Shown here: piece by piece, positions 1 through 30,117 of the stretch
How positions within the stretch are numbered: the stretch's first letter is position 1
Layout of the letters: the number at the start of each line of letters is the position of its first letter
IMG/VR virus record: IMGVR_UViG_3300047550_004491
Location: 1-30,117 of that record
Length of the DNA stretch: 30,117 nucleotides
Direction: 5' to 3' (one strand)
DNA from: a virus
Made by a program: the position numbers and the translations under genes
Notes under the pieces: model-generated
Seen by the model: only the letters and a program-made list of their open reading frames with translations
What the model was told of the DNA's origin: nothing
Database searches by the model: none

Positions 1-132
1 CTTGGACACACTGTTGTTAGGTTATACCCCCCAATCATCCAACAGAGCAGGGATTTGAGAAATCCTCTGTAAACAAATAAATACCCATAAAGAATAAAAA
101 GGATTTTTTTGTTTTCAATACTATTTATTTGT
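1..132. other. Left-edge intergenic stretch with a small hairpin
   Basis: No coding frame is convincing here. A bulged hairpin can be drawn on the plus strand: CAGA (43-46) and GGATTT (51-56) pair with AAATCC (60-65) and TCTG (66-69) around a three-base loop. There is no T-run after it, so it is a poor terminator. The rest is AT-rich leader of the plus-strand gene that starts at 133. The sequence TTATACCCCCC at 23-33 may be the edge of a promoter or of an upstream feature, but nothing decides this. Confidence 0.3.
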
Positions 133-528
133 ATGGAACAAAAATTTTGTAAGAAGTGTGAAAAGTTATTACCTATAACTTCATTCACAAAGAACGCCAA
201 TGCAAAAGACAAAATGAGTTATTCATGTCGCAAGTGTCAAAGAGAATACAATAATCCTGTCATGAGGAAGTATAGAGAAAAACTCAGAAAGGAAAAAGCA
301 ATGAAACTAAAATCATCAAAGGACCCAAATGATGTAACGCATATTAAACTCAGTTCCTTTGATTTCGATAGGGACTATTCTAATACCCTTAAATTCCTCG
401 AAAAAATGGGGTATGACATAACCCTTGATCTCCACGATCAGTTCCTTAAAAGGGTTCTAATGAAGTTTGGCAAGGTTTTAAAACCTAAGGGAAGACCACA
501 AGACAACATCACAAAATATTTTGAATAA
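133..528 (+). CDS. Small zinc-ribbon protein, possibly endonuclease VII-like N-terminal module
   Basis: The only convincing plus-strand gene. The ATG at 133 is preferred because the upstream extension to 109 begins with TTG and adds only hydrophobic residues. The 131-residue product begins with two Cys pairs (FCKKC and SCRKC), about 20 residues apart, separated by a basic and aromatic stretch. This is the usual zinc-ribbon layout of phage recombination endonuclease VII-like and HNH-type proteins. A Lys/Arg-rich helix follows, then an acidic-aromatic segment and a basic C-terminus. No catalytic HNH triad is visible after the zinc ribbon, so nuclease activity is not claimed. A nucleic-acid-binding role is inferred from the zinc ribbon and the basic helix. 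It faces the rest of the window and converges with the secreted-protein gene at 576-1136. Confidence 0.7.
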   Translation: MEQKFCKKCEKLLPITSFTKNANAKDKMSYSCRKCQREYNNPVMRKYREKLRKEKAMKLKSSKDPNDVTHIKLSSFDFDRDYSNTLKFLEKMGYDITLDLHDQFLKRVLMKFGKVLKPKGRPQDNITKYFE

Positions 529-1729: not shown

Positions 1730-1737
1730 CAAAGTTA
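1730..1737 (-). promoter_or_regulatory. Bacteroidota-type -7 promoter element TAACTTTG
   Basis: The minus strand reads TAACTTTG followed by TAAAAAATAA, 15 bases upstream of the ATG at 1714. The same 18 bases occur at 2024-2041, and a close variant at 2873-2890. It matches the published Bacteroidota -7 consensus TAnnTTTG. A clear -33 TTTG is not visible. Confidence 0.6.
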
Positions 1738-2871: not shown

Positions 2872-3030
2872 TTATTTTTGTGCAAAGTTAGAGTTTATTT
2901 CAAGCATTTCCTCATAGGCTTCTTGCTCTTTTTGTTTTTGTTGTAACCATTGTTCGTATTCATCATCGAACATTAAGTCGAATTCTTCTGATGAAATGTA
3001 ATCATCAAACATTTGTTTTGTCATGCTCAT
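2872..3030 (-). CDS. Very small hypothetical acidic/Gln-rich protein
   Basis: A 52-residue frame beginning MSMTKQMFDDYISSEEFDLM, with a Gln/Lys/Glu-rich helix (WLQQKQKEQEAYEEMLE) in the middle. It is the first gene after the promoter-like TTGACT and TATATT pair at 3053-3081 and is followed directly by the gene starting at 2867. Composition and the A-rich leader resemble the neighbouring genes, which supports reality despite the length. Family not recognised. A TAACTTTG element lies inside its last codons. Confidence 0.55.
   Translation of the reverse strand: MSMTKQMFDDYISSEEFDLMFDDEYEQWLQQKQKEQEAYEEMLEINSNFAQK
2883..2890 (-). promoter_or_regulatory. Bacteroidota-type -7 promoter element TAACTTTG
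   Basis: Third copy of the TAACTTTG element on the minus strand, followed by CACAAAAATAA (against TAAAAAATAA in the other two). It is embedded in the last codons of the 52-residue gene and ends 15 bases upstream of the ATG at 2867. Confidence 0.5.
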
Positions 3031-3052
3031 ATTGTTTCGTTTTTATAAATAA

Positions 3053-3081
3053 AATATAGGGTATAGGGGGGTGTAAGTCAA
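3053..3081 (-). promoter_or_regulatory. Promoter-like TTGACT-N17-TATATT
   Basis: On the minus strand TTGACT (3076-3081) and TATATT (3053-3058) are separated by exactly 17 bases, upstream of the small-gene unit that starts at 3030. The spacer contains CCCTATACC, which also occurs in the equivalent position in front of the late operon (29263-29291). The sigma-70-like layout is unlike the typical Bacteroidota promoter, so a phage or modified factor may be involved. Confidence 0.5.
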
Positions 3082-3090
3082 GCAAAAGAC

Positions 3091-3129
3091 AAAAAAAAAA
3101 CCACTTGTAATGGGAGCAAAACAAGTGGT
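3091..3129 (-). terminator. Strong intrinsic terminator at the end of the late operon
   Basis: Perfect 9-bp stem: ACCACTTGT (3100-3108) and ACAAGTGGT (3121-3129), 12-base loop, followed on the minus strand by at least nine T (complement of 3091-3099). It lies about 95 bases after the stop of the HAD fusion gene and just before the promoter at 3053-3081, separating the structural operon from the small-gene region. The remainder of 3130-3222 shows nothing else. Confidence 0.92.
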
Positions 3130-4268: not shown

Positions 4269-4866
4269 AAATACAAGCATATTCAGGTCCCGCATAGTAT
4301 GTCATACCAGGAAAATTGAATCTGTTTATGTCCATAACTCCACCAGTTTCAGGTATTTGTAATCCTGAAAAATATTGCTTACCAAGATGAGGTCTAATAC
4401 CATCATTACTTGACCACTGCCAAACAAGTGGGTATAGATTTGAGTTCCATACAATTTGTTCAATAAGTCTTGCTTCAAAGAATTGTGCTCTGTCATCTGC
4501 TCTTTTTTGCATGTAGTCCATTTCTTTGATTGTAACGGTGTTTTCAGCACCTGTAACAATACCATTGTTTTTAATTCTCATGAATACAGATGGTAAACAT
4601 TCAGCATATGCCGCCCATATTAACATTGGGGCTGCATAATAATTCAAAAAATTTGAATTGATTGTTGTAAGAGTTGAGGCTGAAACTTGATCAAGCAATT
4701 CAACATAGTAACGAGAACCAATTATGTATTCAAGTTTTGTTTGCTGAACAACTTGAATAAAAGGTAATAGAACTGAACTCGTAACATTCTGATCTATGTC
4801 AGTAAAGTTTTTAAGTTTGTTCTCCGAGATTAAACATATGTTTTGTGGAACTATAAATTGACTCAT
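4258..4866 (-). CDS. Head-tail connector-like protein
   Basis: 202 residues. It lies directly after the portal gene and shares an ATGA overlap with its stop. The pattern LISENKLKNFTDIDQNVTSS followed by helices (LLPFIQVVQQTKLEYIIGSRYYVELL) and YYAAPMLIWAAYAECLP is typical of head-completion/adaptor proteins of Bacteroidota phages, a family often annotated as DUF6712-like. Residues after 150 are aromatic and glycine-rich. The product probably forms the ring joining portal and tail. Identification rests on pattern memory and position next to the portal. Confidence 0.65.
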   Translation of the reverse strand: MSQFIVPQNICLISENKLKNFTDIDQNVTSSVLLPFIQVVQQTKLEYIIGSRYYVELLDQVSASTLTTINSNFLNYYAAPMLIWAAYAECLPSVFMRIKNNGIVTGAENTVTIKEMDYMQKRADDRAQFFEARLIEQIVWNSNLYPLVWQWSSNDGIRPHLGKQYFSGLQIPETGGVMDINRFNFPGMTYYAGPEYACIYGC

Positions 4867-6071
4867 GGTTGTTGGATTGTTTCATCTTTTATTTCATCGA
4901 CTGCCACATCTCTTGTTTCATTGATGTCTTCAACTTTCACTGGTGCTTGATCTGCGATTGTGATCATTTGGAATTGATCAACAATAATTTCAGCAGGTCT
5001 TTTGTCTCTGAGTAATAACAACTTGTCAAAGATGTTAAGAAGTTCACGCTGAATTGGCTTAATAACCAAATTATGGAAGTGATCCTGTGCTTCCAAATGA
5101 TCAGGAGTTCCAAGTCCACCAGGAGTTATAATACCTAATAGTTCAGGTGATGAAATCTGATGTGAAGTGAGGATGGCCTGTTGAACCATGTCATTGAGTT
5201 CAGCCCACAACTTGTCAGAACCATTGGAAGGGATGGGTGTGATCTCAGGAGCAGTTTCTTTTGAATCAGAGAATGTTAAGAATAATTTTCCCGCTTGATT
5301 TGATCCACCATATTTTGCCATCATATTCTTATAGATCTCTTCTCTTTGCTCAGGTGCTGGCACTCCATGAAGAGACACGAATAATGATGGTGTAAGACCG
5401 TTAACGATGTTGTTATAATGCCAGTTGAATATTTCACACTGCGTCGCTATGCAAGTGCTTGATCCCCAATAACTTGGAGTCGGGTAATAGTTATTTCCTG
5501 CACTATGTGTTGTATAATAAAAAACTTGAGATGGTTCCTCTGTGTTTGCATTAAATGCAGGGATTCTCACAGGAACAAATTTCTTTGGGAAAGCCCAATC
5601 AGCAGAATAATAAAAGTTATGTATTCTGTCATGTAGATCGGATCTTTCGGCTCTTAATTTGGAGAAGTCCATATAATACATTTCAAATCCTTGATCACGA
5701 TCTCTTCTCCAAACTGTATTGATTGCAAAACCACCGTATAGAATAAAATCCAAAGCGGCTTTCATATAAATGTCATAAAGATTGTCTCCAAGAGAGTTTA
5801 CCATTACCAAACGATCATTCTCTCCTGAAGACAATTTAATACCTTCCCCACGAACTCCATACCATTTGGATGTAACTGCGGCACGATGAGTGGGGGATGA
5901 GTTGTATAAGCGAATCAACTCTTGAGGAGCCAAGTTTGCAGGTCCGTAATAGACATAAGGAGTTCTTGTATTAACGATTAAATTTTCTTCGATGATTGGA
6001 ACTTTGGCAACAGCACCGAAATCGAATACTTTTAACAAATCGTCTCCATCATATTTTATTTCTTGACTCAT
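4863..6071 (-). CDS. Portal protein
   Basis: 402 residues. The portal is the dodecameric ring at the capsid vertex through which DNA is packaged. Support: IRLYNSSPTHRAAVTSKWYG near residues 50-70 (the start of the portal core), the wing/stem-like central region, and the C-terminal block SHQISSPELLGIITPGGLG followed by FHNLVIKPIQRELLNIFDKL (about residues 305-355), a typical portal signature of PBSX/SPP1-like families. It is somewhat short for the family. The tail after residue 375 is acidic and probably flexible. Unusually it lies near the 3' end of the operon, about 20 kb from the terminase, next to its connector. Confidence 0.85.
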   Translation of the reverse strand: MSQEIKYDGDDLLKVFDFGAVAKVPIIEENLIVNTRTPYVYYGPANLAPQELIRLYNSSPTHRAAVTSKWYGVRGEGIKLSSGENDRLVMVNSLGDNLYDIYMKAALDFILYGGFAINTVWRRDRDQGFEMYYMDFSKLRAERSDLHDRIHNFYYSADWAFPKKFVPVRIPAFNANTEEPSQVFYYTTHSAGNNYYPTPSYWGSSTCIATQCEIFNWHYNNIVNGLTPSLFVSLHGVPAPEQREEIYKNMMAKYGGSNQAGKLFLTFSDSKETAPEITPIPSNGSDKLWAELNDMVQQAILTSHQISSPELLGIITPGGLGTPDHLEAQDHFHNLVIKPIQRELLNIFDKLLLLRDKRPAEIIVDQFQMITIADQAPVKVEDINETRDVAVDEIKDETIQQP

Positions 6072-6327: not shown

Positions 6328-8325
6328 TTAATAAGTATTTCTTCCGAGTGTAGTATTAAATGTGTTTATAATTGAACTGAGTGTTTGAATATTTGTGCTA
6401 TTAACCAAATTTTTTCCAATGGTTGCAAAACTCAATGTTCTATTGGTAAATGCATCTGCAGTAGTATTATTGTTTCTTGCACATAAGTAAACATTTCTAT
6501 TAGCAGTATTAACTCTGTAAGTATTACCCGCACCTGACACAACCTGAGTTCCATTTCTCCAACCTGTTATTGGCGATGCACCACTTCCTGCAGATCTATT
6601 CATCAAATAATAACCTGAACCATCATTACTTGCATTTGACCATTGAACATACCCTGACTGTAAAAATGGTGATGAACCAAATGTAGTAGTTTGTCTTGTA
6701 TACATCAAAAATCTGTCTGATGAAACAATAACTCCAATGTCAGTTCCTGTAGATGAGGCAACAGAATTTGAATATACAGATGCATGACATTCGTTAGGAT
6801 TTATATTTTGCCAATTATAATTTGTATTAGCATAAGTATTGGTTCCATTTGGAATGATTCCTGTAGAACTAAAAGAAAATCCTCCATTGAATGTAATGTC
6901 ATATGTTCCAGGATTCTTACCATTCACTTTACATCCACCAGCATTTCCACCAATCATTGGGTAGAAAACATCCAAATAATCCCATAAATTATTTGCCATG
7001 AGGGCTTGAAACATTGTGATTGTTGCTCCAGAAATGGTTGCAGTTATGCCTGTTCCCCCACCAGCGAGAACTGCTGCCAAATAAGTTTCTGCTTCTGTAG
7101 TTCCGCTGATAAATGTAGTGGATGGTGTAATACTAGGCGTAGGCGTTACAGTTGCTGTTTGTGTATTAGTATTAGTTGGGGTCTGAGTTGGTGTTTCTGT
7201 ATTCGTTGGCGTTACAGAAGGAGTTTGTGAGTTAGTGGGAACAGGTGTATTACTTGGAGTTGCACTGTTAGTTGGAGTGACCGTATTAGTTGGTGTGTTG
7301 GTTGGCGTGGTAGTCGGAGTGTTGGATGCTGTAATACTTGGGGTTGGTGTGTTAGTTTGTGTTGATGTAACAGTCGGAGTCGGGGTCGGTGTATTTGACG
7401 CAGTAATACTTGGAGTTGGAGTCATTGTATTAGTTGCCGTAATACTCGGAGTTGGTGTTGCTGTATTTGAAGCAGTAATGCTTGGGGTAACACTTGCAGT
7501 ATTAGATGGCGTCACGGTTGCTGTATTTGAAGCAGTGATACTTGGCGTTGGAGTGTTTGTTCCTGTCGGAGATTGTGTTAAAGTTACAGTTGCAGAAGCC
7601 GTAATACTCGGCGTTGGAGTGTTAGTTGCGGTGACACTTGGAGTATTTGTCGGAGTCACGGTCGGAGTATTTGTTACTGTATTGGTAGGAGTAATTGATG
7701 GAGTATTTGTTGGAGTTCTTGTCGGTGTGTTTGTTGGAGTGCTTGTTTTGGTTGGAGTTACAGTTTGGGTTGGAGTGCATGTATTAGTTGGCGTAACAGT
7801 GGGAGTTGCTGTGTTCGATGCAGTAATACTCGGAGTTGGAGTTGCGCTCGGTGGTGGAGTTTGTGAAGGTGTTTGTGATGGAGTATTGGTTGGAGTAGCA
7901 GAAGGAGGGACAAGTTCACCAGGAGCAAAAATTATTGTTGCGTTGTCCTCATCATTTGAAATATACTCAATGTAATAATCATTTGTTGTCATTGCAGATC
8001 CTGCAACAAGAAGAGCCAAACCTGATTCAACTTTGTTATAAGCAAGCGCTGGATCCAAATTTGTTGATCCTGAATACTGCTCATAAATCCCATAGATGTA
8101 TTGACCTTCATATGGAAAGGCTATTTGACCAACACCTTGTCCTTCTGTGAATTCAAACTGATCATAACGGATTTGATGTGTGGAAAGATTGGGCAAAATA
8201 AATGTCACCCTCTCTTTGCTCATCTTGTGAGTAAAGGAGAATAACCATTCAGGTGTTGCCAGTTCTGCATTCTGTGAAACAGTGCAGATGATCTTATTAA
8301 GTTGATTGGTTTTGAGTAGAAGCAT
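6328..8325 (-). CDS. Tail fibre / appendage protein with long TNTPT repeat and C-terminal lectin-like domain
   Basis: 665 residues from the ATG at 8325 ([12 protein letters not shown]); the longer frame from 8343 would need GTG. Three parts are visible. Residues 1-135 form a virion-attachment-like domain ([20 protein letters not shown], then [15 protein letters not shown]) similar to small structural modules in phage fibre genes. Residues about 138-405 are an uninterrupted low-complexity Thr/Pro/Ser/Asn repeat ([18 protein letters not shown]). Residues about 410-665 form a globular region beginning [13 protein letters not shown], with [11 protein letters not shown] and many Asn/Gly/Tyr, like LamG/concanavalin-type tip domains of Bacteroidota phage fibres. 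It probably binds a host-surface receptor, the repeat acting as an extended stalk. It lies between the tail-tube-like gene and the portal. Confidence 0.75.
7105..7915 (-). repeat. Long TNTPT-type low-complexity repeat in the fibre gene
   Basis: Around 265 codons of Thr/Pro/Ser/Asn units, often [11 protein letters not shown] or VTPTNTPT. Synonymous codons differ from copy to copy, so the DNA is imperfectly repeated while the protein pattern is kept. This argues for selection on the protein rather than very recent slippage. Confidence 0.9.
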
Positions 8326-8338
8326 CTGAATATAAATA

Positions 8339-8369
8339 ATCACAAGAGGACAAAAAGTCCCCCTGTGAT
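8339..8369 (-). terminator. Hairpin after the tail-tube-like gene (weak terminator or processing site)
   Basis: ATCACAAGAGGAC (8339-8351) and GTCCCCCTGTGAT (8357-8369) form a 13-bp stem with two G-T pairs on the minus strand and a five-base loop. The sequence after it is AT-rich but has only short T-runs (TTATTTATATT), so read-through into the fibre gene is likely. It fills most of the 57-base gap between the two genes. Confidence 0.6.
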
Positions 8370-15101: not shown

Positions 15102-16247
15102 TTAACAACAATTTGATCCATCGACAGTAATATAGATGTATTGATTCCCACCAGGAAAAACATAATTCTGTGTGCAACTGAAACCAGTGTTCGGACAAGT
15201 AGAATTACTTTGTGCTAATACACAGGTTGATAGTGTAGTGAAATCAATGGAATCTCCATTTGTGAGTCCTGTTATTGTATAAAAATATTGACAGGTTAGA
15301 GAATCAATATTACCAATTTGTATAACTGAGCCTCCGTTCACTTGGTATTGTAAAATTTGTTCTGCATTTTGGTATTTTGCATAAACATAAAGATTGCCAC
15401 TTGATCCACTTGGTGTATTACTCGGAGTTATGCTTGGTGTTGCAGTTTTGGTCGGAGTGACTGTAGTTGTATTAGTAGGAGTTACGGTTGGTGTTGCACT
15501 ATTTTGCGGTGTTGCTGTATTTGATGGAGTGATGCTTGGTGTGTTCGTGTTAGTTGGAGTCATTGTTTGTGTAACTATTGGGTAACAGTTGTCATAAGTT
15601 ATTCCTGTTATAACACCTGCTTGACTTCCAGGTGCTGCTGGAAAAATTCCCGATGTTGGGTAAACCAAACCATTATAAGTGAAACCTGTTGGGATCGCTC
15701 CATACAATACCCCACCACAATTCCATGAGTAACCACAAGAACTAAAAGTTGGAAATTGCCAGAACCTAAATTTTCCGACTTGCTCATTATAAATTGCAAA
15801 GTAATTCGGATTTGTTTCATTTCTGAAAACAGCATATTGTGTTCCCGCAGAAGTTGCTGAGCAAACAAAAACACATGAAGCACTCAAACCTGTAAAACCA
15901 TTCCAAGATGTATAACCAGGAGTATACGGTTGATAAAGACTATAATATGCACTCGGTATTCCACCAGCAAAATCAACTCTAAATCTTTGACAGACATTTG
16001 GAGTTGTGCTCGGAGTCAAACTTGGCGTTTGCGTTGGAGTTCTTGTTGGGCTTGGGGTATTGGTTGGTGTGTTACAAGGTCCTTCAATCTTGAAATAATC
16101 ACAAGTGAATAAAGGTTGAGATGTGTCCATACATATGGAATCTCCAAAGTTCAAATAAAACCATCCTGTTGAACCCGCACAAGTTGTTCCTGAGATTTCT
16201 ATTGAACCTGAATAAGGACCATCATTTTTATAAACTACACAACTCAT
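15102..16247 (-). CDS. Cys-rich structural protein with two TNTPT stretches
   Basis: 381 residues built as modules. Residues 1-55 are a Cys-containing beta module (SCVVYKND, GTTCAGSTGW, FTCDYFKIEGPC) that runs straight into a first short TPT repeat (about 56-85). Residues 86-225 form a Cys/aromatic beta domain. A second repeat follows (about 226-282), and the last 100 residues form another Cys-rich beta domain (YFYTITGLTNGDSIDFTT, ending DGSNCC). I do not recognise a family. The repeats of the same style in the fibre and tail-tip genes and the position just after the tail-tip gene suggest a virion appendage. The start is ATG at 16247, 12 bases after the preceding stop. Confidence 0.65.
   Translation of the reverse strand: MSCVVYKNDGPYSGSIEISGTTCAGSTGWFYLNFGDSICMDTSQPLFTCDYFKIEGPCNTPTNTPSPTRTPTQTPSLTPSTTPNVCQRFRVDFAGGIPSAYYSLYQPYTPGYTSWNGFTGLSASCVFVCSATSAGTQYAVFRNETNPNYFAIYNEQVGKFRFWQFPTFSSCGYSWNCGGVLYGAIPTGFTYNGLVYPTSGIFPAAPGSQAGVITGITYDNCYPIVTQTMTPTNTNTPSITPSNTATPQNSATPTVTPTNTTTVTPTKTATPSITPSNTPSGSSGNLYVYAKYQNAEQILQYQVNGGSVIQIGNIDSLTCQYFYTITGLTNGDSIDFTTLSTCVLAQSNSTCPNTGFSCTQNYVFPGGNQYIYITVDGSNCC
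15400..15575 (-). repeat. TNTPT repeat (second stretch, Cys-rich protein)
   Basis: Codes for units such as [15 protein letters not shown] and TVTPTKTATPSITPSNT. Similar in pattern to the stretches at 7105-7915, 16505-16615, 22930-23340 and 24365-24555. Confidence 0.85.
15990..16078 (-). repeat. TNTPT repeat (first stretch, Cys-rich protein)
   Basis: Short stretch coding for TPTNTPSPTRTPTQTPSLT directly after the N-terminal Cys module (GPC). Confidence 0.8.
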
Positions 16248-22868: not shown

Positions 22869-25319
22869 TTATACTGTATTCCAAGCATCATTCTCACTAT
22901 TCCAATTTTTATCATTTGTATTCCATACAGCATGTGCTGCTGTGCTTGGTGTTATTGATGGGGTTGGAGTATTTGTTGGAGTGCTTGTATTGGTAGGAGT
23001 ATTTGTGTTGGTTGGTGTTATGCTTGGTGTTACAGATGGAGTATTACTTGGTGTAACAGAAGCGGTAGGGGTATTTGTATTGGTTGGCGTGACAGTCGGT
23101 GTGTTTGTTGCGGTGTTGGTTGGTGTTACCGTTGGAGTGCTTGTTTGTGTTACGCTTGGTGTGTTTGTTGTTGTATTCGTTGGTGTATTTGTAACCGTTT
23201 GGGTATTCGTATTAGTTGGCGTATTTGTGTTAGTTGGAGTAACGGTTGGAGTATTCGTATTTGTCGGAGTAATCGAAGGTGTCGGAGTATTCGTGTTTGT
23301 CGGAGTCTGCGTGGGGGTCGGTGTTGGATTCTGCGTTGGGAAGGGACCACTCATGTCATTGAATGCTGCATCACAACGATCAAGCGGTGTCATTATTTTG
23401 ATTTTAAATGTTCCTGACCAACCAGCAAGCATGTCTTGGTATTTCTCAATGAATGGAATGCATTCAACTGATTCATCCAAATAATAATTCTGATTGAAGT
23501 TACCAAGTGAATCTGTAACACTAAGTCTGAACTGTGAAATGATGTCATCAAGAATTTGATTGGTGTCAGAAAGAACATCAATCATGTTGTCAAGATCTCT
23601 TTCCAAAATGTCAGCAACCAAAACATTGAATTCATAACTCATGTATTGTAATTCCTGTGTTGCTTGATTTGGAATCACGAACATAAGTGGGTAATATGGT
23701 GCTTGATTGTCGACATTCACTTCCTTGTCTCTTGTGTCCGTTAAATAACCAAACTCTTCAGCATCCCCAAATCCAAATGAATTGATTTGTTTGTGATGAT
23801 CCGCAAGTAATCTAAAATCGTCTATAATTGATTTAAAGTTAATTCCTGCGTGGTATATTGGTGTTCCTGTGAATGTGTTGAAGGCTGCGGCACATCTGTC
23901 AAGTGGTGTCTTGGTTTTTATATTGATGAGTCCTGTCCATCCATTTGTCATGTCAGAATAGTGCTCCATAAATGGGGTGCAAACAACTGTGTCATCCAAA
24001 TAATACAAGTAATTGAAATTACCTTGAAGATTGGTAACAGAAAGTCTGAATTGACTTATAACATCATTAAGAATTTGTAGTGTGTCTGAAAGTGTGTCAA
24101 CTTCATTTGCAAGATCCCTATCAACAATGTCAAGTGAGACAACATTGAACTTCCATTCTTTGAACTGTAGATCATTGGTGATGTTACCAGGGACTATGAA
24201 TAGTAATGGGAAATAAGGTGACTGTGCATCAGGATTGTCTTGTTTGTCTCTTGATGTTGTTAAATAAGAAAGTTCATCAACATTACCAAGACCGAATGAA
24301 TTGATTTGTTTATGTGAATTGGCAAGGTATTTCAGATCATCAGCAATGGTCTTAAAATTGATTCCATAAACTGGTAGTGGTGTTGGGCTCGGTTGAGCAC
24401 TTGGGGTAATACTTGGGGTAATACTTGGGGTTGGTGTGTTCGTTGGAGTGTTGGTGGGTGTCTGTGTATTGGTTGGCGTATTTGTCGGAGTGTTGGTTGG
24501 AGTTTCAGTATTTGTTGGAGTAATCGATGGAGTGGGAGTGGGTGTCGGCGGAAGTCCAATATATTTCGAATAGAAATAATCATAAGTGTCCGTCATTTCT
24601 GTGTCAGAAAGTCTTCTGTCATAAACTAAAACTTCTGTCATAGCCAGACCTTGCTGTTGACCTAATATTTGGAATATAGGATTGGTAAATGTTACAAGTG
24701 TATTTGTTTGAACTGTCTGACTCACAAGAGCACCACTCAACCAAAATTCTGTTACTGCAGATGTTCCTGATTGGTAAACTCTTGTTGCTCCAATCACCCA
24801 TTGATTTGTATAACCACTAATACCTGGCTCAGGATTTACGGAAGTTCCGCCTGTATAGAATGTGTATGTTCTTCCACCATAACCTGCTCCAAAAGGTTCC
24901 AATGTGTCCACTTCAAAAAATCTATTTGGAGCATTTGTTTGACAGAGGTAGTTAGATTGTTGATCACAAGCAAGAATGACATTATAAGTTGATCCTGTAT
25001 TATTATACATGAACCAAGTTGTGTAGTCTTGGTATGATCCATAATCTCCTAATTGATTGGTCAAACCGAATACAAAACATCCTGGTGATGATGTTCCAAC
25101 ATCTGAAGTTGCAACTCCCGAATATTGTAATGTTGTTGGGTTTTGGTAACCTGAATAACTATATTGAGAAAGTCCACCAGTTACTCCTGAGAAGTATTTT
25201 GGTAATGATGCAAGGTTGTCTGCTTTTAATATTGCAACACCTGTTCCTCCACCTATGGTGAGAGATGATTGATTGGTAAAATCAACTTGAACGGTAAGAC
25301 CTGATGTTATAAAACTCAT
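22869..25319 (-). CDS. Large modular appendage protein with LamG-like domain, two tail-completion-like domains and two TNTPT stretches
   Basis: 816 residues in five parts. Residues 1-254 form a LamG/concanavalin-like domain ending with the hallmark [20 protein letters not shown]. Residues about 255-318 are a TNTPT repeat. Residues 320-492 and 493-662 are two copies of one domain with a 173-residue period: [10 protein letters not shown] and [10 protein letters not shown] against [10 protein letters not shown] and [10 protein letters not shown], both with ISQFRLSVT and TPLDRC. This domain resembles the stand-alone tail-completion proteins of Bacteroidota phages, in which a short helix and the motif HKQINSFG precede PLLFIVP. 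Residues about 663-795 are a second repeat, then a short tail. The start at 25319 shares ATGA with the frameshifted stop of the preceding gene. It probably sits at the neck or tail surface. Confidence 0.75.
22930..23340 (-). repeat. TNTPT repeat at the C-terminus of the large appendage protein
   Basis: About 135 codons of [17 protein letters not shown]-like units with mixed synonymous codons. Confidence 0.9.
23335..24362 (-). repeat. Internal duplication of a tail-completion-like domain
   Basis: Two copies, 24362-23844 and 23843-23335, with a 173-codon period. They share [33 protein letters not shown] and TPLDRC. The DNA has diverged between copies, so this is not a recent exact duplication. 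Confidence 0.85.
24365..24555 (-). repeat. TNTPT repeat after the LamG-like domain
   Basis: About 60 codons including [15 protein letters not shown]. At 24399-24430 the plus strand has two exact copies of the 12-mer ACTTGGGGTAAT and the start of a third, coding for ITPS units; this is the only near-exact short tandem DNA repeat seen in these regions. Confidence 0.9.
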
Positions 25320-26078: not shown

Positions 26079-27218
26079 TTAGTATACATAAACTCCTGTG
26101 TCTCGGGCTACCTTCATCTCGAGGACATAACGAATGCCATCGAGCAAGTGGTTTGAATCATGCACCGGTTCATCAAGGTTGTTATTATTCTTGTCAATCT
26201 TCCAAACATATTGTTGAAGTTCAGATTGTAGATTAATTGAGTTTTTATGAACATAGAATTTTGATCTCTTGATTAGATCAATTCCATGTAAGATTGAATT
26301 TTTCTTTACTGGTTTTGCGTTGATTCCTTCTCTCTTGAGTTCCGCTATTGCTTGAGGATTTGCACTGTCACAAATAAAATCATCATATAAACTGACATCA
26401 AGATCTTTAATCTTATAAACAAGATCTGGTATGGTTACATTTTTGAGGTATAGTAGTTCCTCACAGTATATTGCTTCACCAAGTTTATAAACTTTGACAA
26501 GTGCTGATGGATGTGAATAACCCCAGTCCAATCCATAACCCAATAGTTTCGCTTCTTTTGGGAGATCCTCATAGATCTGTTGATGATTGAATACAACTCT
26601 TGTTGGAGTTCCTCTGAGTCCAAGACCAAATACTTTCCATAGGTTTTGATCTCTGTCTTTTAGTTTTTCGATCTCATCAATTTGTGCTTGTGGTAAAAAT
26701 GGATTGTCCTTATAAGTTACGATCCTATAGAATGTGTCCTCTTGTTTTTCCATGTCATATAGGTAAGAATTCCATAGAGACGGATTGAAGTCAAAGATCA
26801 TTTTCTCTGAAGTTCTTAGTGACAACTGAACATATTCATCATAGGTAATCTCTGTTGCTTCATTGACAAAACATACATCTCTCTTCCTACCTCTGATCTT
26901 TTCTTCTGAATCCAGTGAGAACCATTCAATGATGTTTGTTCCAAGTTGGTAATAACCATCAACAGAATGCCAGTCATCTTCTTTATAGAGATCTAACATC
27001 AGAAGAATTTCTTTAAGGTCACGAAGAACAGATCCTTTGAGGGCGGGTAGAGTTTTTCTCACAATGGAATATGTTTTATTCTCTTGTTTTAGAACATCAA
27101 TCACCATCCAGAGAATTATATTCCATGTTTTCCCCGCCCTCGAAGAACCCTGAAAAATGTAGTTTCTATAATTGGGGTTTAATAGATCCTCAAATACCTG
27201 TGTTGTTTGAACTTTCAA
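26079..27218 (-). CDS. terL: Terminase large subunit (PBSX/XtmB-like)
   Basis: 379 residues. It is the ATP-driven DNA-packaging motor and nuclease that cuts and fills the head. The ATPase part has Walker A GSSRAGKT (24-31) and a Walker B-like CFVNEATE preceded by a basic GRKRD. The nuclease part has LDWGYSHPSALVKVY, then FICDSANPQAIAELKREG and a final acidic segment SNHLLDGIRYVLE, the order seen in PBSX-type large subunits. No ATG lies between an upstream in-frame stop and the Walker A motif; the best start is TTG at 27218, inside the A-rich end of the small basic gene. The small subunit lies about 0.6 kb upstream. Confidence 0.9.
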   Translation of the reverse strand: MKVQTTQVFEDLLNPNYRNYIFQGSSRAGKTWNIILWMVIDVLKQENKTYSIVRKTLPALKGSVLRDLKEILLMLDLYKEDDWHSVDGYYQLGTNIIEWFSLDSEEKIRGRKRDVCFVNEATEITYDEYVQLSLRTSEKMIFDFNPSLWNSYLYDMEKQEDTFYRIVTYKDNPFLPQAQIDEIEKLKDRDQNLWKVFGLGLRGTPTRVVFNHQQIYEDLPKEAKLLGYGLDWGYSHPSALVKVYKLGEAIYCEELLYLKNVTIPDLVYKIKDLDVSLYDDFICDSANPQAIAELKREGINAKPVKKNSILHGIDLIKRSKFYVHKNSINLQSELQQYVWKIDKNNNNLDEPVHDSNHLLDGIRYVLEMKVARDTGVYVY

Positions 27219-27360: not shown

Positions 27361-27797
27361 GGTGTTAAAGTTTTTCTTACATACTTGCTCATCTTAAGTC
27401 TCTTTTCTGTTTCAAATACATTGTTCACATACTTGGAGATTTCGATGATTTTATTTTGCATTATTCTATAATTGGTTTCCCCGACAACATAGAAATTGAA
27501 TTCAATTCCATAGAAACAATAAAAGTTTCGGTAATATGATTCTTTGATCTGTGTGTCCATAATGTATTTAGAGTTCATTCCTTCCATCTTAAGTGCTTTT
27601 TCGATGGAGAACCTTAATCTTTGGAGAAAGTGTCTTAAATCGACTTTATGGTCGTTCTCATTTGATTCCATGAATCCCTTTATACCAAACCAAACAGATT
27701 TTATGTCATTTTTAGTAACTGATCCTGCATCAAGTTGAAAATCTTTGTAGTCAGGGGTTTTGAAGAAATAGAATTTTGGTTTCTTAGTCTTGCTCAT
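27309..27797 (-). CDS. Conserved-looking protein of unknown function between the terminase subunits
   Basis: 162 residues with a basic N-terminus (MSKTKKPKFYFFKTPDYKDF), a central helical region (RHFLQRLRFSIEKALKMEGM) and an aromatic stretch (YYRNFYCFYGIEFNFYVVGE). No membrane segment or catalytic motif is seen. Family not recognised. It overlaps the small-terminase gene by 14 bases and the small basic gene by 52, so it is part of the packaging cluster; a packaging-related role is inferred only from this position. Confidence 0.65.
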   Translation of the reverse strand: MSKTKKPKFYFFKTPDYKDFQLDAGSVTKNDIKSVWFGIKGFMESNENDHKVDLRHFLQRLRFSIEKALKMEGMNSKYIMDTQIKESYYRNFYCFYGIEFNFYVVGETNYRIMQNKIIEISKYVNNVFETEKRLKMSKYVRKTLTPCQNQESAEEKKPITVE

Positions 27798-28215
27798 TTT
27801 GTTCTTTTGATTTGATTATTTCGATTTCAATTTTCTTATTGGAGTCAATCTTTTCTCCCATTGAAGTTATGTCTACTTTCTTTTCTGCATTCCAATCATC
27901 TTTGAATCTGTTTCTCATGATCAGAGAATATAAGTTGGAGTTTAGATCTTTTGACTTCCCATCCTTGAATCCTTTTCTTGGTATTGAATTCCACCAATTA
28001 TGTGAAAGTTCTCTAAACTCATTGATGGTTTCTTGAAATTCGGGTTCATTTTGGAGTAATGAATAGAATGCCTCCTTTGAAATCCCAAGAGCAACTCTGA
28101 GATCGACATCAAAATGTCCTTCTCTTCCCATCTCGAGTGCTATGAGTTTCCAATTATGTGGAAGACTATTGAGCGTCGTTAGAGGTCTCCCCACTGGTCT
28201 TTTGCCATTGTTCAT
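27784..28215 (-). CDS. terS: Terminase small subunit (probable)
   Basis: 143 residues from the ATG at 28215 (MNNGKRPVGRP); the longer frame from 28224 would need TTG. The block KLIALEMGREGHFDVDLRVA and LGISKEAFYSLLQNEPEFQE is a helix-turn-helix-like DNA-binding region typical of small terminases, followed by WWNSIPRKGFKDG and a Lys/Glu-rich C-terminus that may form the oligomerisation part. It would recognise the packaging site and load the large subunit. It lies two genes upstream of the large subunit. Its 5' end overlaps the preceding gene by about 50 bases. Confidence 0.7.
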   Translation of the reverse strand: MNNGKRPVGRPLTTLNSLPHNWKLIALEMGREGHFDVDLRVALGISKEAFYSLLQNEPEFQETINEFRELSHNWWNSIPRKGFKDGKSKDLNSNLYSLIMRNRFKDDWNAEKKVDITSMGEKIDSNKKIEIEIIKSKEQNEQD

Positions 28216-28504
28216 ATTGTTCAAATCTTTTAATTAGATGATCCATTCTATTTTTCACTCTGATCCAACAATCTATACAGTTGATGGTAAGTTGCTCAGG
28301 GAAATGTTTATTATGGAAATTTATAACCCATTTTTTTTCTGTTAAGACATGAGAGTTTCTTATAAAGAATTCTTGAACTCTCATTATTTCTTCTTTTGAA
28401 TATTCAGGTTTTGGTGGTTCTTTTAATTGGACTGAGCCATCGGCTTTGTTGACAATCACTGGTTGAGATTGTTCTTTATTCTTTTGTTTACAATTACATC
28501 CCAT
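28166..28504 (-). CDS. Small Cys-containing protein preceding the terminase
   Basis: 112 residues beginning MGCNCKQKNKEQSQ (a CxC pair at positions 3-5), with a second Cys pair further on (INCIDCWIR) that could bind a metal. The middle is basic and helical (EEIMRVQEFFIRNSHVLTEK). Proteins beginning MGCNC occur next to packaging genes in Bacteroidota phages, but I cannot name a function. It overlaps the sigma-like gene by 11 bases and the small-terminase gene by about 50. Confidence 0.65.
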   Translation of the reverse strand: MGCNCKQKNKEQSQPVIVNKADGSVQLKEPPKPEYSKEEIMRVQEFFIRNSHVLTEKKWVINFHNKHFPEQLTINCIDCWIRVKNRMDHLIKRFEQYEQWQKTSGETSNDAQ

Positions 28505-29048
28505 TTGCTTTGTAGTGTTCTTCTCTAATTTTTTTTAATATTCTTCTGTATTTGTTTATGTCCCTTGAGACTGAATTTAATGGTATTGTTGTTCGTTTTG
28601 ACAACTTGCTAACTGAACAACCTTCTTCTATAAATAGTTCAAACAGACGAGCATAATACCACAGGTCTCCTTTCTTATGAAATCTAATCAAATCTTCTAC
28701 CCAATTCAAGTTAATTTCCGATTCTTCATATATTGAATCTTTTAGATCATGATCTGTTAATTCTGTGAACTTATATTTTGTGTATTGATGGAAATATTGA
28801 CTTGTCTTTGAATGAAAGTTATTTCTAACCATTCTTGCAAAAAAGAACAACCTCTCTTTGTCATTTAATTTTGGCGCTAAATTATTTGAGAGAAGTTGTT
28901 CAAGACAAGAGTGCAATAGATCATCAACATCTTTTAACTTGGAGATCTTTTGACATATTAAGTTCAGTTCCGAATAGTTATTCTGAATCCATTGATTCAG
29001 ACTTTGGGGTGTGTTTTCCCCTAAAGAGGATTCTGTTGTGGAACTCAT
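28494..29048 (-). CDS. Sigma-70-family-like transcription factor
   Basis: 184 residues. Residues 37-90 resemble sigma region 2 (KDVDDLLHSCLEQLLSN, then FFFARMVRNNFHSKTSQYF). The C-terminal residues 128-175 resemble region 4 (YARLFELFIEEGCSVSKLSK, then PLNSVSRDINKYRRILKKI), with a helix-turn-helix. The distance between them matches a two-domain ECF-type sigma. It could direct host RNA polymerase to phage late promoters. It is the second gene of the late operon, with a 71-base overlap with the winged-helix gene. No anti-sigma gene is visible. Related phage proteins are often annotated as sigma-70 factors; activity is not proven by the sequence. Confidence 0.65.
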   Translation of the reverse strand: MSSTTESSLGENTPQSLNQWIQNNYSELNLICQKISKLKDVDDLLHSCLEQLLSNNLAPKLNDKERLFFFARMVRNNFHSKTSQYFHQYTKYKFTELTDHDLKDSIYEESEINLNWVEDLIRFHKKGDLWYYARLFELFIEEGCSVSKLSKRTTIPLNSVSRDINKYRRILKKIREEHYKANGM

Positions 29049-29244
29049 TTTGTTCTGTCCAATGATTGTTTATTCTCTGCAAATAACCTCTCTTAACCAA
29101 AACAATCACATGATCTCTAACCGAAAATGGTGAGATGGTCATGTCCTTTGAGATTTCAGTATTTGTTATTGTTGAATAACCTTTTGGATTCTGATCAATG
29201 GATTCACAGATGATGTCATAAATTTTTTTGTGAATTGGATTCAT
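28978..29244 (-). CDS. Small winged-helix DNA-binding protein
   Basis: 88 residues. Residues about 22-60 form a winged helix-turn-helix: STITNTEISKDMTISPFSVR is the recognition helix region and DHVIVLVKRGYLQRI the following helix and wing. It is the first gene after the promoter-like sequence at 29263-29291, which makes it a candidate regulator of that promoter. The C-terminus (GKHTPKSESMDSE) is flexible and overlaps the sigma-like gene. Confidence 0.7.
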   Translation of the reverse strand: MNPIHKKIYDIICESIDQNPKGYSTITNTEISKDMTISPFSVRDHVIVLVKRGYLQRINNHWTEQNEFHNRILFRGKHTPKSESMDSE

Positions 29245-29262
29245 GGCTTTTTCTTTTTATAA

Positions 29263-29291
29263 ATATTAGGTATAGGGTGGTATAGAGTAAA
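29263..29291 (-). promoter_or_regulatory. Promoter-like region of the late operon
   Basis: On the minus strand TTTACT (29286-29291) and TAATAT (29263-29268) are separated by exactly 17 bases; the spacer contains two copies of CTATACC (CTATACCACCCTATACC). The element at 3053-3081 has the same arrangement (TTGACT, 17 bases, TATATT, with CCCTATACC in the spacer). The repeated CTATACC may be an activator or operator site. It ends about 18 bases upstream of the winged-helix start. Confidence 0.55.
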
Positions 29292-29317: not shown

Positions 29318-29348
29318 AAAAAACCCCAACTTTTTTAGATTGGGGTTT
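29318..29348 (-). terminator. Intrinsic terminator upstream of the late operon
   Basis: AAACCCCAA (29321-29329) and TTGGGGTTT (29340-29348) form a perfect 9-bp stem, followed by T-rich sequence on the minus strand (complement of 29317-29323). It ends the transcript of the three genes to its right. Confidence 0.88.
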
Positions 29349-29350
29349 GA

Positions 29351-29662
29351 TTATATTGATTTGAATCTACCGAATTTTAATTCAAGACCAGTCATGGTTC
29401 TTGTGATGATGTCACATCTTTCATATTCTTCTTCTTCCTTTGCCTTTCTTAATTGATCTGTTAAGATTCCAATGTATAGATGAATCAGTCTTGGATCAAT
29501 GTCGAGATTGAATTTATAATATTGGAGAACAATGTCAACAATCTCTTGTTTTTCTTCTTCCTTGAGTGTGAAATATTTTTGAACAGGTATGTCATATTTT
29601 TCAGAAAGTAGTTCTTTAAACCTGTCAATCTGTCTCTCTCGGGAATCCTTGAACCGTTTCAT
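29351..29662 (-). CDS. Hypothetical helical protein
   Basis: 103 residues, almost wholly helical and charged (KRFKDSRERQIDRFKELLSE; later ILTDQLRKAKEEEEYERCD). Family not recognised. It ends two bases before the terminator stem at 29318-29348 and overlaps the gene at 29625-29831 by 38 bases, so the three genes at this edge form one unit. No catalytic motif is seen. Confidence 0.65.
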   Translation of the reverse strand: MKRFKDSRERQIDRFKELLSEKYDIPVQKYFTLKEEEKQEIVDIVLQYYKFNLDIDPRLIHLYIGILTDQLRKAKEEEEYERCDIITRTMTGLELKFGRFKSI

Positions 29663-29831
29663 CTGTTGGTAATTTTAAAGTCTTCAACATCGCCATCTTG
29701 ATCTGCCACTTATTATATTCTAAATATAAATCATGCATTCTTGCTCTTTCAAGACTGGTCATTGTTGAATTATTTCCTTTATTCCAATCAGAGTTAAATA
29801 ATGGTTTAAAGTGCTCTGGTAGATCATTCAT
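29625..29831 (-). CDS. Hypothetical small protein
   Basis: 68 residues (MNDLPEHFKPLFNSDWNKGN and onward) with a helical Arg/Met/Lys-rich middle. Family not recognised. It overlaps both neighbours (8 bases with the gene on its 5' side, 38 with the one on its 3' side), which supports it as part of one translationally coupled unit. Confidence 0.6.
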   Translation of the reverse strand: MNDLPEHFKPLFNSDWNKGNNSTMTSLERARMHDLYLEYNKWQIKMAMLKTLKLPTDETVQGFPRETD

Positions 29832-30117
29832 ACTTATAAATTTTAAAAAACTTACGAAAGTATTCTCTTGGAATCAAGAATCCTTTTGTCATTGAATCAG
29901 AATCACCAACATTGTCTTTAACATCGAATGGATGTGTTTCAACAATCTCTCTTAAGATTCTTGTTTCAATCATCCATACTTCATTCATTCTTTTGAGAAT
30001 GTGAATCCAGTAATCTGCTTTTGTTGTCATTATTCCACTTTGTTTTCCCCTGCATTCATATTCAATGAAAATGGTTCCATATAGATCTGGTTCAATAGTT
30101 ATATTCCTGTAATGAAT
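29824..30117 (-). CDS. Partial PD-(D/E)XK nuclease-like protein, cut by the window edge
   Basis: The frame is open to the right end of the window. An internal ATG at 30030 would give 68 residues, but the sequence upstream (NITIEPDLYGTIFIEYECRG, then KQSGI) is protein-like and joins TTKADYWIHILK in frame. IFIEYE-RGK-SGI-TTKADYW is the core of a phage family I associate with PD-(D/E)XK-fold nuclease-like proteins, where IEYE carries the acidic residue. The 5' part with the rest of the active site lies outside the window. Function as a phage DNA-metabolism nuclease is inferred. If the real start is 30030, this part would be a short unknown protein. Confidence 0.55.
   Translation of the reverse strand: MHYRNITIEPDLYGTIFIEYECRGKQSGIMTTKADYWIHILKRMNEVWMIETRILREIVETHPFDVKDNVGDSDSMTKGFLIPREYFRKFFKIYKYE

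Follow-up and report, generated by a model that had tools for sequence, protein, structure and literature searches.

Does the pair of regulator-like genes at the head of a phage late operon act on the promoter in front of it? This question is raised by the window analysed here, a whole IMG/VR virus record of 30,117 bases with nearly all genes on the minus strand, for which an earlier note had described a 26-kb structural operon opened by two transcription-regulator-like genes and had suggested a positive feedback switch for late expression.

Organization of the late operon

The two open reading frames, of 88 and 184 aa, were found where they had been placed (28978-29244 and 28494-29048, minus strand), in different frames and with an overlap of 71 bp. 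Since the chain of same-strand genes that they open reaches 3223 with no gap larger than 71 nt, "26-kb operon" is a fair description. They are not the first genes on the minus strand, as 29351-30117 lies upstream, separated from them by an intrinsic terminator. The main features are as follows.

29351-29662, minus strand: conserved 103-aa gene upstream of the terminator (U100, the name used here)
29321-29348, minus strand: intrinsic terminator that separates promoter S1 from the genes before it (folding, -13.1 kcal/mol, z -3.7)
3223-29244, minus strand: late operon with winged-helix, sigma-like, packaging and structural genes (from gene chain and gaps)
28978-29244, minus strand: 88-aa predicted winged-helix protein (wHTH), first gene after S1 (open reading frame, 20-member alignment, Pfam, PDB profile)
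28494-29048, minus strand: 184-aa predicted ECF-like sigma factor (region-2-like residues 17-90, region-4-like residues 114-181)
28166-28504, minus strand: 112-aa protein starting with MGCNCK
27784-28224, minus strand: terminase small subunit, TerS (phrog_309, E 4e-4)
26079-27218, minus strand: terminase large subunit, TerL (Terminase_3, 5.8e-16; phrog_2, 1e-35)
3088-3128, minus strand: intrinsic terminator at the late operon end, directly before promoter S2 (folding, -11.9 kcal/mol, z -5.1)
2872-3030, minus strand: 52-aa first gene of the S2 operon

Downstream of the sigma-like gene follow, without large gaps, the 112-aa cysteine protein, TerS, a 162-aa protein and TerL. The 112-aa protein has GCxCK at its N-terminus, followed further on by a CxxC or CxxxC pair; it might conceivably bind zinc and act as a small partner, perhaps as an anti-sigma factor. 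The terminator at the far end of the operon was found by folding, the terminator scan having missed this hairpin because its loop is too long. Beyond it, the small-gene operon headed by S2 spans 3030-576. Its 52-aa first gene had no Pfam match, and the S2 sites of relatives precede similar small proteins (MGQIK.., MGMTK..). When an anti-sigma factor or an inhibitor of host RNA polymerase was sought with Pfam, nothing was obtained for any of the 10 proteins of the small-gene region in this record, which may be incomplete. Within the structural module, the proteins encoded at 6328-8343, 15102-16247 and 22869-25319 (minus strand) contain long TPT/SIT/TNT repeats resembling Thr/Pro/Ser linkers.

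Conservation of the gene order

Relatives were found stepwise: 5 records at 78-100% identity, more through TerL neighbours, and then 60 through alignment A2. Because the sigma-like ORF has relatives in 60 viral_contigs records (31-100% identity over the best segment), the wHTH/sigma observation is more than chance. Gene order was counted over 61 distinct records with a sigma gene, each denominator being the records with enough sequence. The wHTH gene lay directly upstream of the sigma gene in 49/56 testable records; downstream, the cysteine protein was found in 53/54 (those with 500 nt downstream), TerS in 44/52 and TerL in 18/19. U100 was located upstream in 46/51 records, and a zinc-ribbon-like gene was present on the opposite strand in 29/30. 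Record L084 (G027), which is without the cassette, was the outlier in every count, and no wHTH was found in L020, L072, L074, L060, L063, L083 and L084. An unrelated-looking protein replaces TerS in the L027/L028 group (L027:4974-5330), with the rest of the cassette kept.

The zinc-ribbon-like gene of the window (CxxC...CxxC; 109-528, plus strand) is at the far end of the record, whereas in relatives it sits between the S2 operon and U100 (e.g., L019:275-685, minus strand). This position suggests a circularly permuted map of a genome that the record probably covers almost completely. No sigma relative was detected in two scans of genome_contigs nor, at E 1, among INPHARED phages, where at E 10 only 7 Aeromonas phage records appeared, with E 3-4 and not meaningful; the family is therefore one with no isolate in these collections.

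The winged-helix and sigma-like proteins

The 88-aa protein, which had been called a winged helix, is one by homology: among 20 members of its family, Pfam matched HTH_24 in 8 (best 2.1e-5), Fe_dep_repress in 9 (best 5.7e-6) and LexA_DNA_bind in 6, and a PDB profile search with the family returned the MarR-type repressor AdcR (1.4e-4).

The homology and structure models point to the 184-aa protein as a genuine, very divergent ECF-like sigma factor. Taken alone, it aligned to the NCBIfam sigma70-ECF model (TIGR02937) with E 0.01 over 3-163 of 165 model positions, at 15.5 bits and hence below the curated cut-off of 42.9 bits. In a 38-sequence alignment, whose other members are 28-79% identical to the window protein, TIGR02937 matched 35/38 members (best 2.4e-8) and the Bacteroidota sigma-70 model TIGR02985 matched 14/38 (best 5.6e-5). 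The conclusion "not a sigma factor", drawn from a Pfam search in which the window protein gave only HTH_20 (E 0.11), was thus rejected, because only the single sequence, and not the family, gives a weak signal. Profile searches against the sequences of solved structures returned no sigma factor, which counts against the sigma reading.

An AlphaFold model built on 38 homologues (pLDDT 83.5; pTM 0.42, so that the relative placement of the domains is uncertain) comprised helices at residues 17-90 and 114-181 joined by a loose linker, with no region 3. An earlier model from 6 near-identical sequences (pLDDT 42.3) was not counted as evidence. The top Foldseek matches in PDB were mostly sigma factors, none below E 0.001. 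The best over the whole chain was 9n9q chain C (E 2.3e-2, prob 0.98), the sigma chain of an RNA-guided transcription complex; the likeness is of fold only, and no Cas-like protein was recognised beside the sigma gene. In VIA-align, the model matched 3mzy (sigma-H region 4; Z 8.6, 70 residues, rmsd 2.4) and 6dv9_F, an ECF sigma in an initiation complex (Z 8.2, 165 residues), where an rmsd of 9.6 indicates that the domains are placed differently. Z values of 8.2-8.6 are middling for helical proteins, yet in agreement with the sequence result. Viral structure matches included phage proteins named sigma-70 family. Sigma-70/ECF homology thus extends over regions 2 and 4, in the two-domain layout with a linker and no region 3. 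The lack of regions 2 and 4, which would have spoken against the earlier description of a sigma-like regulator, was not observed, since the predicted fold has separate region-2 and region-4 domains.

Late regulators of the ArpU/RinA type in Firmicutes phages are encoded just before the terminase genes and are not known to have a sigma region 2. The 184-aa protein might be an activator of this sort, a region-4-like DNA binder that aids the host holoenzyme with no sigma replacement. Its gene occupies the same genomic place, directly before the packaging genes, and the region-4-like part is the best predicted (block pLDDT 95-97). We nevertheless consider this reading improbable, given that the model also contains a region-2-like domain (residues 21-90, with a block pLDDT of 82-93), that 5uxx_C matches this part over residues 11-93, and that TIGR02937 aligns over nearly all of its model positions.

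Promoters S1 and S2

A promoter motif was learned from the upstream regions of 28 non-redundant family loci. The best match to it in the window coincided with the promoter that the earlier note had named at 29263-29291 (S1), and the second-best place was S2.

29259-29291, minus strand: promoter S1, TTTACT (29291-29286), 17-nt spacer (29285-29269), TAATATTTAT (29268-29259)
3049-3081, minus strand: promoter S2, TTGACT, 17-nt spacer TACACCCCCCTATACCC, TATATT

Their cores are TTTACT-17-TAATAT and TTGACT-17-TATATT, respectively. S1 precedes the wHTH gene and S2 the small-gene operon, both directly after intrinsic terminators, and in the window no intergenic promoter candidate other than S1 was seen ahead of the late genes. 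A 22-nt S1 pattern was found once, and only once, per record in 13 related records, and the reversed pattern had 0 matches. A looser pattern had two matches in the window, S1 and S2 (expected 0.21), a number reached in 3/100 shuffles. A generic sigma-70 scan gave promoters no more numerous than in shuffles (16 vs 16.6; 5 vs 6.6). In most of the 22 fetched relatives S2 lies 2.1-6.8 kb upstream of the wHTH gene, wrap-around allowed; the G014 candidate lies at 0.9 kb. S-type promoters were also seen at the zinc-ribbon-like gene (L055:5046-5083, L027:2973), with divergent pairs in some relatives.

All family genomes are related, and the sigma and wHTH genes could accordingly be ordinary coding passengers, the promoter likeness reflecting shared ancestry without function. 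We judge this very improbable: S1 and S2 stand at different places yet have a common core and often a common spacer element, and the gene order is maintained among proteins only 38-50% identical to those of the window.

Two promoter classes in the family genomes

The family genomes hold two promoter classes, a distinction that is new here: a host-type class with TAnnTTTG, which is the sigma-A consensus of Flavobacterium psychrophilum (PMC9723704), and an S class, TTGAY-N-TA(T/C)(A/T)YTT. In the window, a host-type box precedes the small gene 1466-1714.

1730-1737, minus strand: host-type -7 box, TAACTTTG

Host-type boxes belong mainly to small early-region genes, between S2 and U100, and the S class to operon heads. 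Of the 23 family genomes, which comprise 22 relatives plus the window, 16 entered a strict count: S-type promoters were present in 19/203 of their upstream regions (expected 0.25) and in 0/146 upstream regions of 7 Bacteroidota phages in which no sigma relative was found (expected 0.13; Fisher 2.3e-5). The family members share ancestry and are not independent samples; moreover, the enrichment of a pattern in the very family that supplied it is in part circular, and only the contrast with the controls carries weight. The looser TT(G/T)AY form was present in 25/203 family regions (expected 1.55) and 3/146 control regions (expected 0.74). The host -7 box occurred in both sets, in 27/203 (expected 6.45) and 34/146 (expected 6.79), respectively. 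The controls were 7 of 8 fetched isolate records; ctOK67 (0 S-type, 1 host box of 28) was omitted because its host group is uncertain. By sequence, a putative phage-specific class, distinct from the host promoters, therefore lies upstream of the sigma gene and the late genes.

ATATTTA directly before ATG was also considered as a promoter. It is found at portal and other structural genes (window 4863-6071, minus strand; portal genes of relatives) and, adjoining the start codon, is more likely translational; the strict count for this reason omits the last 10 nt before ATG.

S1 and S2 might instead be read by host sigma-A through a relaxed -7 box. The real switch would then be the wHTH, as a repressor or activator in the spacer, and the sigma-like protein would act elsewhere or modify RNA polymerase with no part in promoter choice. 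The main difference between TATATTT and TAnnTTTG is the last base, and S2, with its TTGACT, fits the -35/-10 spacing and matches the E. coli sigma-70 consensus at 10/12 positions; host polymerase could thus read S2. Also, the inversion of the spacer element in some phages, described below, is more in keeping with an operator than with an element read by sigma. Against this, clear TAnnTTTG boxes stand elsewhere in the same genomes, the S class is absent from the sigma-less phages, and the S core is kept in the candidate S2 promoters of records with no wHTH found. We regard this alternative as unlikely, though not implausible.

A shared element in the promoter spacer

The spacer of S1 contains two CTATACC copies 10 bp apart, and similar elements, which from their arrangement look like operators, were found in many spacers of the family; neither these nor the second S-class operon, headed by S2, had been foreseen in the earlier description. 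TATACC/GGTATA was present in 6/18 S1 and 13/18 S2 sites (expected about 2% each), the latter count being inflated, as the S2 site of the window was found by a CTATACC search and the others were picked by eye and with regexes, one of which adds to the bias by demanding AC[CTA] one or more times within the element. The 18 S2 sites come from 23 genomes: G024, G028 and G029 were given no S2, G022 (no wHTH found) was placed in the other group, and G027 is the outlier. Within the set, the G014 site is a promoter divergent to the zinc-ribbon-like gene, that of G012 is on the other strand and that of G020 was chosen by eye. The element is inverted (GGTATAG) in S2 of G017, G021, G025 and G026. S1 and S2 were more alike within than between genomes (11.29 vs 9.74, n=17), with 81/20000 permutations as high, and 334/20000 in a reduced set of n=12.

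Among S2 sites of records with no wHTH found, the element occurred in 0/5 (3 clades; L083 gave no site) vs the 13/18 above (Fisher p 0.007 by site, 0.044 in the reduced set). In L020/L072, however, two of the records in which the wHTH search found nothing, CTATACC lies upstream of U100, and the wHTH-bearing G014, G015, G016, G019 and G023 have an S2 candidate without TATACC, so we put forward the link between wHTH and this operator-like element as a hypothesis only.

A model for late transcription

The reading that we favour, and consider somewhat probable, is that the phage sigma reads the S class, so that the sigma/late operon amplifies itself, and that a spacer-binding regulator, possibly the wHTH, acts on the same promoters. 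Its directly supported steps are the gene conservation, the sigma and winged-helix homology, the two promoter classes and the shared spacer element. The ECF-like sigma would take over host RNA polymerase and steer it to promoters with TTGAY or TTTAY, about 17 nt and TATAYTT, which head the sigma/late-gene operon (S1) and the small-gene operon (S2), while small early-region genes would use host TAnnTTTG promoters instead. The first sigma molecules might come from basal or read-through transcription; sigma would then boost its own operon, and hence virion production, by positive feedback. A DNA-binding regulator, possibly the wHTH, may tune these promoters through the CTATACC-like sites between -35 and -10 and, with such elements in many spacers, may repress or modulate transcription instead of activating it. 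We infer the reading of the S class by sigma, that of the spacer by the wHTH and the temporal order.

The positive feedback proposed in the earlier note is thereby favoured rather than demonstrated, as the class of S1 is distinct from host TAnnTTTG in the same genomes and absent from sigma-less controls. A more specific version appears rather unlikely as a whole: a self-amplifying late switch with two keys throughout this family of small Bacteroidota phages, in which sigma would read an E. coli-like TTGAC-N17-TATAYT normally unused by the host sigma (TAnnTTTG) and the wHTH a reversible CTATACC spacer operator co-varying between S1 and S2 in each phage.

If true, the favoured model would define a late-transcription switch for Bacteroidota phages, one that parallels phiEco32 but has a promoter class of its own and a partner regulator. 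Bacteroidota promoters are unusual, and the orthogonal core of such a phage sigma would make it a useful expression tool in Flavobacterium and Bacteroides, as well as a means of asking how sigma-70-like promoters are recognised by a divergent ECF-like sigma.

Comparison with known systems

Phage ECF-like sigma factors had been called poorly studied in Bacteroidota phages. This holds as far as the search went: in the literature listings covered, which include few subscription papers, we found no report of late genes controlled by a sigma factor of a Bacteroidota phage. It does not hold for phages at large, since ECF sigmas with promoters at their own genes are known in phiEco32 and Salmonella phage 7-11.

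The host ECF sigmas of Bacteroidota (TIGR02937, TIGR02985) have the same two-domain sigma-2/sigma-4 layout, although the window protein scores below the curated cut-off. In F. psychrophilum, an ECF-like motif, SM6, has a CGT box at -10 (PMC9723704). Unlike it, S1 and S2 carry no typical ECF CGT-type -10 element, which counts against an ECF-sigma reading of the S class and is pertinent only if S1 and S2 are the targets of the sigma. The window resembles ArpU/RinA systems in having a regulator gene just before the terminase genes and differs from them in its predicted sigma region 2.

The closest studied system is that of phiEco32 and 7-11. According to the published accounts (PMC4331800, PMC7881722), these phages have an ECF-type sigma whose promoters precede the sigma gene and structural genes, and the sigma gene is transcribed from host and phage promoters. 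They encode an anti-sigma factor, whereas none was recognised here; their promoters, in 7-11, have a TGATGT core in place of TTGAY-N17-TATAYTT; and the location of the sigma gene differs, lying here within the late operon near TerS, with the wHTH gene before it, in a 30 kb record. What the window would share with phiEco32 and 7-11 is a phage ECF-type sigma with phage-specific promoters upstream of both the sigma gene and the structural genes.
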